From positions 1 to 38,763 of the forward strand of contig JACIWU010000022.1 of NCBI GenBank assembly GCA_014360805.1: a stretch of DNA of 38,763 nucleotides. Direction: 5' to 3'. Both the position numbers and the translations under genes were made by a program. The notes below the pieces were generated by a model. The model saw nothing but the letters and a program-made list of their open reading frames with translations. It did no database searches and was not told the origin of the DNA. Positions 22,110-25,349 of this stretch are shown one piece after another (position 1 is the first letter of the stretch; each line of letters begins with the position of its first letter). The stretch comes from Chloroflexota bacterium. Its GTDB lineage: Bacteria; Chloroflexota; Anaerolineae; DTLA01.

Positions 22110-22265
22110 CACACGTAGGGCGGCTTTCCATAGACGCCGGCATTGTAACCACGAATAACGCGAATCCACGCGAATAGAATAAATAATGTAGACATGCAGA
22201 GCGGCCTCCCATAGCCGACGGCGTTGTAACCGCGAATAACGCGGATCCACGCGAATGGAATACAG
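22110..22265. repeat. 81-bp tandem duplication containing repeat B
   Basis: Two diverged units with a period of 81 bases. Each holds a GGCGG-TTTCCATAG-like part, then TTGTAACC-CGAATAACGCG-ATCCACGCGAAT-GAATA. The second part is repeat B in inverted orientation; the first part resembles the 106-bp repeat on the other side of the HExxH gene. Together with repeat A it fills the gap between that gene and the RNA unit. No gene is visible. Confidence 0.8.
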
Positions 22266-22386: not shown

Positions 22387-22415
22387 TTGCATTTTTTCGG
22401 GAAGTCTGCTATAAT
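22387..22415 (+). promoter_or_regulatory. Predicted strong promoter of a folded transcript
   Basis: TTGCAT (22387-22392), 17-base spacer, TATAAT (22410-22415) with TGC before the -10. It points toward the selenium genes. The next 370 bases contain no long gene. Confidence 0.75.
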
Positions 22416-22421
22416 CTTCAC

Positions 22422-22633
22422 AGACTTGGGTAGGCCATTCGGACCACTCGGGTAAGGAGAACGAAAGTGTACAAGGTGGTTCGTCGCCGCACATGAGCGA
22501 TGGCCCTGGGTGCCAGTTGGCGCCCAGCAGTTGGCCGTCACGCGCTGGGGTGCGGCGTCGGGCCCGCACCCTAGGCAACTCCTAGCCGCGACCTCCTGGG
22601 GCCGCTGCCGGCGCGTGATGGCAGCGGTTTTCT
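22422..22633 (+). ncRNA. Putative structured RNA or attenuated leader upstream of the selenium genes
   Basis: About 212 bases between a strong promoter and an intrinsic terminator, with a series of pairings. GGACCACT (22441-22448) pairs with AGGTGGTTC (22474-22482), allowing G-U pairs. GATGGCC (22499-22505) pairs with GGCCGTC (22533-22539), enclosing CTGGGTGCC/GGCGCCCAG (22506-22527). GGGTGCGG (22548-22555) pairs with CCGCACCC (22564-22571), and CTAGG/CCTAG lies at 22571-22585. A nine-codon reading (GTG 22467 to TGA 22496, MYKVVRRRT) has AAGGAG at ideal spacing and lies in the first stem. It could be a free small RNA or a leader controlling the genes after 22694. I match it to no known family. 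Confidence 0.55.
22602..22633 (+). terminator. Intrinsic terminator of the folded transcript
   Basis: A perfect 8-bp stem, CCGCTGCC (22602-22609)/GGCAGCGG (22620-22627), is followed by TTTTCTGTT. It lies 157 bases before the desulfurase-like gene, so it either ends a small RNA or acts as an attenuator. Confidence 0.8.
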
Positions 22634-22693
22634 GTTGCCCACAGCGGGAACACCCGCCCGCCAGGAGATTATGTCGACAGGAGGTATTGCGCC

Positions 22694-22783
22694 ATGGCCC
22701 ACCATCTGCCTCGCGCCTTCCCCTCGCGATGGCGTATTGCCTTAGCACGGGCTGACATCGGCCTGCCAACCCGCATGGTTTGA
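22694..22783 (+). CDS. Possible 29-residue small protein or leader peptide
   Basis: ATG 22694 to TGA 22783 encodes MAHHLPRAFPSRWRIALARA and nine further residues. An AGGAGGT site lies 8 bases upstream, and the frame ends 6 bases before the next gene. The peptide is basic and has no recognised family. A second overlapping small frame (from ATG 22670, behind CAGGAG) is also open. It may be a translated leader coupling translation to the next gene, or chance. Confidence 0.3.
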   Translation: MAHHLPRAFPSRWRIALARADIGLPTRMV

Positions 22784-22789
22784 AACGTC

Positions 22790-23956
22790 ATGAGCGGCAT
22801 CATCTACTTTGACAATGCCGCAACCTCATGGCCCAAGCCGCCAGAGGTTCTGGAGGCCATGACGCGCTTCCTGCGCGATGTGGGCGCCAACCCGGGCCGT
22901 TCGGGCCATCGGACGGCGGTGGAGGCCGGGCGGATTGTGTACGCGGCGCGCGAGGCGGTGTGCGAACTGGTGAACGCGCCCGACCCGCTGCGCGTGGCGT
23001 TCGCCGCCAACGTTACCCAGGCGCTGAACATGGCCATGCGGGGGCTGTTGCGCCCCGGCGACCACGTCATCACCAGTTCCATGGAGCACAACTCGGTCAT
23101 GCGCCCGCTGCGCGCGCTGGAGTGCGAGGGCGTGCAACTCACGGTGGTGCGATGCTCGCCCGAAGGGTTCCTGAACCCCGCCGACGTGGAGGCGGCCATC
23201 CGCCCGAATACCCGCATGATCGTGCTGAATCATGCGTCCAACGTGGCGGGGACGCTGCTGCCGGTGCGCGAGGCAGGCCGCATCGCCCGCGAGCGCGGCC
23301 TGCTCCTCCTGGTGGACGCGGCGCAGACGGCGGGGGCCTATCCCATTGACGTGCAGGCCGACGGGATAGACCTGCTGGCCTTCACCGGCCACAAGTCGCT
23401 GTTGGGGCCGATGGGCACGGGCGGGCTGGTGGTGGGGCCGCGGGTGGACGTGTCGCGCATGGAGCCGCTCATCCGCGGGGGCACGGGGAGCCGCTCGGAA
23501 CGCGAGGAGCAGCCCGACTTTCTGCCCGACATGCTGGAGAGCGGCACGCCCAACGCCGTGGGGATTGCGGGGCTGGACGCGGGCATCCGCTGGGTGTTGG
23601 CGCGGGGCGTGGACGCCATCCGCGCCCACGAGAGGACGCTGGCGCAGCGGGCGATAGACGGCCTGCGGGCCATCCCCGGCGTTACGGTGTACGGCCCACT
23701 GGACGCGGCGCGGCAGACGGCGACCGTCTCGTTCAACATCGCCGGCATGGAGCCATCAGAAGTGGGCCTGCGCCTGGACGAGGAGCACGGCATCCTGTGC
23801 CGCGTGGGGCTGCACTGCGCGCCGGCGGCGCACAGGACGCTGGGCACCTTTCCGGCGGGGACGGTGCGGTTTGGCATGGGCGTGTTCAGCACGACAGAGG
23901 AAGTGGACGCGGCCGTGGCGGCGGTGGCAAGCCTGGCGCGGGAGGCGCGGCGATGA
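22790..23956 (+). CDS. Class V aminotransferase, cysteine desulfurase/selenocysteine lyase-like
   Basis: A 388-residue PLP enzyme. Family features are IYFDNAATSWPKP at the N-terminus, VDAAQTAGA (175-183), PLP lysine Lys202 in FTGHKSLLGP and active-site Cys343 in GLHCAP. It belongs to the SufS/CsdB-like group often found beside selD and DUF3343 genes in selenium-using bacteria, where it is thought to deliver sulfur or selenium from (seleno)cysteine. Length is typical. It overlaps the DUF3343 gene by four bases (ATGA), so the two are translationally coupled. The exact substrate, cysteine or selenocysteine, cannot be told from sequence alone. Confidence 0.9.
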   Translation: MSGIIYFDNAATSWPKPPEVLEAMTRFLRDVGANPGRSGHRTAVEAGRIVYAAREAVCELVNAPDPLRVAFAANVTQALNMAMRGLLRPGDHVITSSMEHNSVMRPLRALECEGVQLTVVRCSPEGFLNPADVEAAIRPNTRMIVLNHASNVAGTLLPVREAGRIARERGLLLLVDAAQTAGAYPIDVQADGIDLLAFTGHKSLLGPMGTGGLVVGPRVDVSRMEPLIRGGTGSRSEREEQPDFLPDMLESGTPNAVGIAGLDAGIRWVLARGVDAIRAHERTLAQRAIDGLRAIPGVTVYGPLDAARQTATVSFNIAGMEPSEVGLRLDEEHGILCRVGLHCAPAAHRTLGTFPAGTVRFGMGVFSTTEEVDAAVAAVASLAREARR

Positions 23957-24177
23957 GCGAAGCCTACGCCGTGATCCTGGTGCACAGCACCAGCCACGCC
24001 ATCCGCGCCGAGAAGGTCTTGCAGGCCGCCGGCATCGCGTGCAAGATGATTCCGGTGCCGCGACACATCAGTTCGGATTGCGGCGTGTGCGTGCGGGTGA
24101 GCCGCATTGACGCGGAGGCTGCCCGCCGCACGCTGGAGGCCGTGGGGATGGAGATAGACGACATCCGCGACGTGTAG
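23953..24177 (+). CDS. DUF3343 protein, putative selenium/sulfur carrier
   Basis: 74 residues: a small alpha/beta protein with Cys30 (GIACKMIPVP) and the family signature SSDCGVCVR (Cys43, Cys46). DUF3343 proteins occur next to selenium genes and are considered candidate carriers of selenium or sulfur. The function is not proven. The start overlaps the desulfurase stop, and selD begins 110 bases later, so the three form a coherent selenium block. Confidence 0.85.
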   Translation: MSEAYAVILVHSTSHAIRAEKVLQAAGIACKMIPVPRHISSDCGVCVRVSRIDAEAARRTLEAVGMEIDDIRDV

Positions 24178-24287: not shown

Positions 24288-25349
24288 ATGAACGAACGCG
24301 ACAAGATTCGCCTGACGGCCCTTGCCTCGTGCGCGGGCTGAGCGGGCAAGATGGGGCCCGAGGCCCTGGCGCAGGTTCTGCAGCCACTGAAAGATGCCTT
24401 CCGAGAGGATCAATTCCCGGACTTGCTCGTCGGTCTGGGCAAAGCCGACGACGCCGCCGTGTACCGCCTGTCGCCTGACCTGGCCATCGTCCAGACGCTG
24501 GACTTCTTCGCGCCGGTGGTGGATGACGGCTACACTTATGGGGCCATCGCCGCCGTCAACGCCATGAGCGACGTGTGGGCCATGGGCGGCGAGGTGCTGC
24601 TGGCGTTGAGCATCGCCGCGTTTCCGCCGAACCTGCCGCCGGAGGTCGCTGGCGACATCCTGCGCGGCGCGGGCGACAAAGTCGCCGAGGCGGGCGCGGT
24701 ACTGGCTGGCGGCCACACCATGGAGGACAAAGAGCCGAAATTCGGCCTGTGCGTAACCGGCACGGTGCACCCCGACAAGGTCGTAACTAAGAGCCGCGCC
24801 CAGGTCGGCGACATCTTGGTGCTGACCAAGCCGCTGGGTGTCGGCGTAATCACCACCGCGCTCAAGCAGGGGCTGGCCGACCCCGCCCACGTGGAAGCGG
24901 CCACCGCCAGCATGTTGCGCCTGAACCAGGCCGCCGCGCGCGCCATGCAGGCCGTGGGCGTCCACGCCGCCACCGACATCACCGGCTTCGGTCTGTTGGG
25001 CCACGCGCAAGAGATGGCGGCCAACAGCGGCGTGGGCATCCGTTTCGTCCTGGAGGCGCTGCCCTTCCTCCCCGGCGCGCACGAGTACGCGGCCAAATGG
25101 GTGTTCCCGGGCGGCGCGTACAACAACGAGCGGTTCTACGAGCCGCACGTGTCCTTCGCCGAGGGCATCCCCGACGAGACGCGCCTGCTGCTGTACGACC
25201 CAGAGACGTCGGGCGGGCTGCTCATCGCCGTCGCCCCCGATCGGCTTGCCGCGCTGGAGGCCGCCATGCAGAAGGTCGGGCAGGCGTACTGGGTCGTGGG
25301 CGAGGTGGTGGAGGGCACAGGCACGGTGGCGGTGGTGGAGAGACCGTAG
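24288..25349 (+). CDS. selD: Selenide, water dikinase (selenophosphate synthetase), itself a selenoprotein
   Basis: 353 residues. Makes selenophosphate from selenide and ATP for Sec-tRNA synthesis. The frame begins at ATG 24288 behind TAGGAGACCGAAC and runs LTALASCAG-TGA-AGK. The TGA (24339-24341, codon 18) sits where SelD proteins have a catalytic Cys or Sec, so it encodes selenocysteine. Downstream are the AIR-synthase-like nucleotide-binding features GLGKADDAAVY, LDFFAPVVDD, GGHTMED and DITGFGLLGHA. A gene call that stops at the TGA would start at ATG 24351 and lose the catalytic N-terminus. Its product is required for the Sec in FdnG and in SelD itself. Confidence 0.94.
24339..24385 (+). 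promoter_or_regulatory. Candidate SECIS element of selD
   Basis: After the TGA a stem GGCGCA (24368-24373)/TGC-A-GCC (24379-24385, one bulged A) encloses a GGTTC loop, similar to the GGTCT loop in fdnG. The loop starts 35 bases from the TGA, further than the 21 in fdnG. A closer stem, GGGCC/GGCCC with a CGA loop (24354-24366), competes. Confidence 0.55.

Follow-up and report, generated by a model that had tools for sequence, protein, structure and literature searches.

Ribosome-mediated attenuation and the SECIS element are each known, and their combination in a leader whose sensed codon is a recoded stop appears to be new, as far as we found. In tnaC, free tryptophan is sensed at a true stop codon and no SECIS is involved, and the SECIS-like element of E. 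coli selAB reportedly acts on translation through the binding of SelB, with neither a decoded UGA mini-ORF nor a terminator switch. We know of no earlier attenuator that uses a recoded stop codon. In the literature that we searched, mostly outside subscription journals, no Sec-codon leader was described, and recent reviews of prokaryotic selenium biology contained no leader or attenuator. Lin et al. 2015 (PMC5322559), who proposed YedE, leave leaders unmentioned and call the regulatory network of selenium not clear.

The element described here lies in a stretch of 38,763 nt (the window), which is contig C22 of a draft genome of 3.24 Mb (Chloroflexota, class Anaerolineae). It is flanked by a minus-strand gene for an InhA-like peptidase on one side and by a plus-strand selenium operon on the other, and no evident gene was seen on the opposite strand at the element. 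The element is a folded leader of 217 nt (22422-22638) with a promoter, a nine-codon ORF and a terminator. We read it, with a probability of about 0.75, as a selenocysteine-decoding leader, i.e., a ribosome-mediated transcription attenuator with a recoded stop as its sensor codon. The features of the locus, in part predicted, are as follows:

22387..22415, plus strand: promoter, TTGCAT - 17 nt - TATAAT with an extended -10 (TGC)
22454..22459, plus strand: ribosome-binding site AAGGAG of the leader ORF, conserved in congeners
22467..22496, plus strand: leader mini-ORF VYKVVRRRT (GTG to ACA), then UGA at 22494-22496, the proposed Sec codon
22497..22574, plus strand: putative readthrough extension of 25 codons, closing at UAG 22572-22574
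22499..22539, plus strand: SECIS-type hairpin, upper stem 22506-22514/22519-22527, lower stem 22499-22505/22533-22539
22515-22518, plus strand: apical loop AGUU of this hairpin, on the 9-bp stem
22535..22547, plus strand: putative antiterminator strand CCGUCACGCGCUG, inside the readthrough frame, sharing bases with the lower stem of the SECIS and with the start of P2
22545..22574, plus strand: hairpin P2 (22545-22555/22564-22574), its 3' arm containing the readthrough stop; in the same place in most relatives
22602..22636, plus strand: intrinsic terminator, stem 22602-22609/22620-22627, U-tract 22628-22636; loop and flank 22609-22621 complementary to the antiterminator
22680..22783, plus strand: ribosome site and yedE remnant of 29 codons (MAHHLPRAFPSRWRIALARADIGLPTRMV, then stop); no yedE elsewhere in the genome
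22790..23956, plus strand: csd, cysteine desulfurase/selenocysteine-lyase-like (PF00266, TIGR01977)
23953..24177, plus strand: Se/S carrier protein (PF11823, DUF3343)
24288..25349, plus strand: selD with in-frame UGA (Sec) at 24339-24341, ..ASCAG-U-AGKMGPEALAQ

An earlier note made from the sequence alone had described a consensus-like promoter, a folded transcript with an intrinsic terminator, and a nine-codon frame with a ribosome site, and all three were borne out, although the note overlooked the role of the stop of this frame as the sensor codon. The -10 (22410-22415) is a perfect TATAAT with TG at -15/-14, and the congeners G001 and G002 retain both hexamers in slightly altered form; the -35 (22387-22392) matches the consensus at 3 of 6 positions only, which is why a generic promoter scan missed the promoter. 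Transcription would start near 22422. The leader folds with -110.2 kcal/mol (z = -2.7), and the terminator consists of the arms CCGCUGCC/GGCAGCGG (22602-22627) followed by UUUUCUGUU. With its loop of 10 nt it was missed by a strict pattern scan; in relatives the terminator is conserved, often with a 12-bp stem and a longer U run. The note had also recognised no known RNA family, and Rfam agrees (no match at the gathering score, and at E <= 10 two meaningless matches only). A T-box was rejected by eye, since the T-box consensus is absent and Rfam gave no match. Upstream of the promoter (22120-22262), a 62-nt repeat occurs in two copies that are 87% identical, with a GCGAATAACGCGAATCCACGCGAAT core.

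Homologues of the element were found ahead of selenium genes. BLAST returned matches ahead of yedE in two congeners and a partial match in another family, and the element is present in one copy in its own genome, which ruled out a repeat family or a multicopy sRNA; a search of plasmid DNA for the element gave no match. A phylum-wide search with model R1 yielded, besides the window, a single real match, G010, in which the leader stands directly ahead of selD-csd (the weaker matches that were inspected, at about 33 bits and below, lay inside or beside ordinary genes, e.g., acetolactate synthase, and were discarded). A search for YedE (TIGR04112, a putative selenium transporter) covered 396 genomes of the class and yielded 57 good loci, the upstream regions of which were read; they span many families, but they are kin to each other, and counts over them are inflated and do not represent independent events. 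In nearly all of these yedE loci a mini-ORF ends in H-R-R-T-UGA or a near variant, the H-R-R-T being retained via synonymous codons, and we predict from this conservation and from that of the Shine-Dalgarno sequence and the start that the leader ORF is translated. One yedE locus (L034, in G007) departs from the other leaders: its upstream leader-like ORF, MRSWWWPPVRYS-UGA, contains three Trp codons and two Pro codons.

G001 and G002 have the operon order leader-yedE-yedF-csd-carrier-selD. The window has lost yedE and yedF, and its leader stands before csd-DUF3343-selD; the 29 remaining yedE codons, between leader and csd (22694-22783), have 58% identity over 24 aa to the YedE of G001, and a deletion has evidently taken yedE and yedF out of this locus. 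The genes that the note had named as following the transcript (desulfurase/lyase-like, DUF3343, selD) agree with the profile families, the yedE remnant being the addition. The csd product belongs to the Aminotran_5/cysteine desulfurase family, is closest to TIGR01977 and scores below the SclA cut-off. As the leader stands ahead of yedE operons and of selD-csd, what its downstream genes share is a role in acquiring selenium and supplying Sec. Every occurrence that was found is oriented like the yedE or selD/csd operon that it precedes, which weakens the free small RNA that the note had offered as an alternative, and the element is very probably a cis-acting leader of the downstream operon.

The machinery for Sec is encoded in the same genome, with tRNA-Sec (anticodon UCA), SelA and SelB all present, and SelB was found in 52 of the 55 yedE genomes. 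A co-occurrence test of whether genomes without SelB are leaderless was dropped, as G125 (88% complete, without SelB) has a leader. The window SelD is itself a selenoprotein, because an in-frame UGA occupies its active-site position (ASCAG-U-AGK); its true start is at 24288, and the standard ORF listing begins 21 codons too late. G001 (L189) carries selD twice in tandem, and identity to the window SelD is 59% for one copy and 94% for the other.

Under a rule blind to the stop, 40 of 40 mini-ORFs end in UGA, and the reverse-complement control gave none. A second rule, blind to the peptide (a start with SD, UGA, and a hairpin with G in its loop 17-26 nt behind UGA), matches 49 of the 56 yedE loci (dinucleotide shuffles: mean 1.1, maximum 4), and with UAA or UAG substituted for UGA it matches 0 of 56 each. 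The hairpin conforms to what is described of bacterial SECIS elements, in which the apical loop lies 16-37 nt behind UGA (PMC10778597; criteria also from PMC1794560): in the window the loop is 18 nt behind UGA and contains G, and the hairpin behind UGA, taken alone, has z = -4.95 (0 of 200 shuffles). Of the cells of the SECIS stem, 99.5% are paired, and 6 of its 7 pairs have changed on both sides (0 of 500 shuffles). The apical loop is at +18 nt in nearly all loci of group A, mostly as R-G-U-U/C, and mostly at +20/21 in group B (L048-L072, roughly 20 loci), where a stem UGCAC-GGC-GUGCA is found and a recognisable terminator is mostly absent; the output step of group B must therefore differ from that of group A. 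The bulged U of the fdhF-type upper stem was not found, a U.G or C-G pair standing in that place; to our knowledge this bulge is a feature of the E. coli type and not of all bacterial SECIS. The hairpin at the window selD UGA is less strong than the leader SECIS and, for that reason, the SECIS rules in this clade are uncalibrated on a known selenoprotein.

The frame past the UGA is conserved in length. Of 35 loci, 30 close it within +69..+84, with +75 and +78 the commonest positions (shuffles 2.5, maximum 7); the other two frames close there in 2 and 4 of the 35. L016 has a longer spacer that preserves the frame, its stop being at +99, 24 nt farther out than that of the window. The closing codons are mixed (UGA 15, UAG 11, UAA 9 over the 35 loci), and an invariant first stop with a freely varying second stop is as expected of a Sec codon with a true stop behind it. 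It is hardly credible, then, that this is an ordinary leader in which UGA is a mere stop and another ligand or codon is sensed: the Arg codons before UGA would suit such a sensor, but there is no UAA or UAG in 56 loci, the frame past UGA is open and length-conserved, and the SECIS covaries. We consider it very likely that the leader UGA is recoded by the Sec machinery, and the residue inserted there would be Sec.

That the product is a small selenopeptide or selenoprotein (about 35 residues) with a function of its own and no part in regulation seems very unlikely; the synonymous retention of H-R-R-T before UGA and the conserved readthrough length would fit it, but conservation of the peptide ends where the SECIS hairpin ceases to dictate its sequence, four group B loci (L054, L058, L060, L071, with the loop at +26) have a second stop one codon past UGA, the element precedes selenium genes wherever it was found, and its coding strand covaries with the terminator. 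Highly improbable, too, is repression in cis by SelB bound to the hairpin without decoding, of the kind reported for the SECIS-like selAB element of E. coli (Thanbichler and Bock 2002): the hairpin is indeed SECIS-like, but such a mechanism has no need of an upstream mini-ORF with an SD, an invariant in-frame UGA and a readthrough frame whose length is constant while its stop codons are mixed.

The attenuator reading draws further on the complementarity of two strands downstream. The readthrough frame of group A loci contains, at about UGA+36..+50, a strand complementary to the loop and flanks of the terminator, and this complementarity is specific to the locus (own strands 21.2, against 14.7 +/- 0.8 when dealt to other loci). 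When the antiterminator strands were permuted, 0 of 20,000 permutations reached the own-locus complementarity (control stretch p = 0.35). Examples of the two strands (antiterminator/terminator loop) are:

window: UCACGCGC/GCGCGUGA
L019: GUACAUACC/GGUGUGUAC
L031: GGCCUGCGUC/GGCGCAGGCC
L033: AUAUGCAUC/GAUGCAUGU
L090: UCGCACGC/GCGUGUGA

P2 lies directly 3' of the antiterminator, and its 3' arm extends to, or contains, the readthrough stop in most loci. Five bases of the window antiterminator also belong to the lower stem of the SECIS, which links SECIS, antiterminator and terminator. The covariation check proposed in the note for regions upstream of homologous operons was thus positive both for the SECIS stem and for antiterminator and terminator, and of the selenium- or cysteine-responsive attenuator that it had suggested, the invariant UGA, the covarying SECIS-type hairpin, the conserved readthrough length and the covarying switch point to a selenium device. 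Comparison of homologous sequences, in sum, supports the mini-ORF, the identity of the UGA, the SECIS-type hairpin, a translated readthrough frame and a covarying antiterminator.

The proposed attenuator would work as follows. A ribosome would start at GTG 22467 and arrive at UGA 22494, where the conserved H-R-R-T may slow release and so favour the choice between two outcomes. With Sec-tRNA-Sec and SelB available, the SECIS hairpin would let UGA be read as Sec, and the ribosome, on its way to UAG 22572, would open the SECIS and occupy the antiterminator strand (22535-22547). The terminator (22602-22636) could then form and transcription would stop. With Sec in short supply, the ribosome would terminate or linger at UGA, the antiterminator would pair with 22609-22621, no terminator would form and the selenium operon would be expressed. 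A regulatory UGA (Sec) codon fits the product of the operon downstream (yedE-yedF-csd-carrier-selD).

Constrained folding of the window RNA gave the terminator a probability of 0.00 when the ribosome sat at UGA and of 0.89 when it was placed midway along the readthrough frame. With the ribosome parked at the readthrough stop, however, the antiterminator strand is re-exposed and favoured (terminator 0.04), and the model therefore needs the timing of ribosome and polymerase rather than equilibrium. Equilibrium folding of the relatives was mixed, with the terminator present in every state in L021, L023, L028, L031, L036 and L070, and we place no weight on this test. Antiterminator and terminator are, judging by their covariation, mutually exclusive, and constrained folding agrees with this in the window and is mixed in the relatives. 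We infer that RNA polymerase and ribosome are coupled and that the response has the sign high Sec = off; transcription attenuation with that sign is probable. The opposite output, in which readthrough as Sec switches the operon on, is unlikely: YedE was considered as an exporter as well as a transporter by Lin et al. 2015 (PMC5322559) and might remove excess selenium, and loop pairing, which spares 6-8 bp of the lower terminator stem, might stabilise termination through a conceivable pseudoknot, but readthrough should mask an antiterminator that lies within the readthrough frame, and the operon includes selD and csd, suppliers of Sec synthesis.

Candidates for similar leaders were seen beyond these loci. 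Outside Chloroflexota, leaders or candidates with UGA and a SECIS-like hairpin precede yedE in MAGs of Spirochaetes (L118, the readthrough frame of which also closes at +75), Fermentibacteria (L093, which could be a misbinned contig) and Desulfuromonas (L116, weak). Leaders with two UGA codons one codon apart were observed before yedE in L022 and L024 (family f42), L098 and L105 (Desulfobulbaceae) and L084 (Desulfobacterales), in the forms HHR-UGA-I-UGA, MKSR-UGA-A-UGA, MRRR-UGA-R-UGA and MARRR-UGA-N-UGA; in L098 and L105 the readthrough frames past the second UGA are equally long, and such leaders may be tandem sensors. We think it likely that UGA+SECIS leader peptides form a widespread bacterial class that senses the supply of Sec-tRNA and switches selenium-acquisition operons by transcription attenuation, with a second output in loci that lack the terminator and with tandem UGA-x-UGA versions in Chloroflexota and Desulfobacterota.

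If the attenuator reading is true, the element measures the end product itself, Sec-tRNA delivered at the ribosome, which bears on how bacteria sense selenium; it would give a function to tiny UGA-containing ORFs that gene and selenoprotein finders pass over, and would provide a native selenium reporter. The role of yedE would become testable, as uptake predicts repression by Sec and export predicts induction.

Among known systems, the amino-acid attenuators (trp, his and leu leaders) share with this leader a mini-ORF with a regulatory codon, an antiterminator, and a terminator before genes that supply the sensed amino acid. Here, however, regulation would hinge on a stop codon that tRNA-Sec, SelB and a SECIS recode, a shortage of Sec would lead to termination at UGA and not to mere stalling, and it is readthrough, not release from stalling, that would mask the antiterminator. 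With the SECIS of E. coli fdhF (in the sequence of which we verified the loop, GGUC, at 18 nt behind UGA) it shares the UGA, the distance of 18 nt to the apical loop, an R-G-U-[UC] loop and a short upper stem, but the leader encodes no enzyme, and its hairpin has no bulged U and overlaps the antiterminator with its 3' lower arm. The tnaC-type leaders have in common with it a short peptide with conserved last residues that ends in UGA, and differ in the SECIS and the recoded stop. The nearest precedent is the 5' SECIS-like element of E. coli selAB (Thanbichler and Bock 2002, cited in PMC8124441), in which a SECIS-type hairpin likewise regulates a selenium operon.
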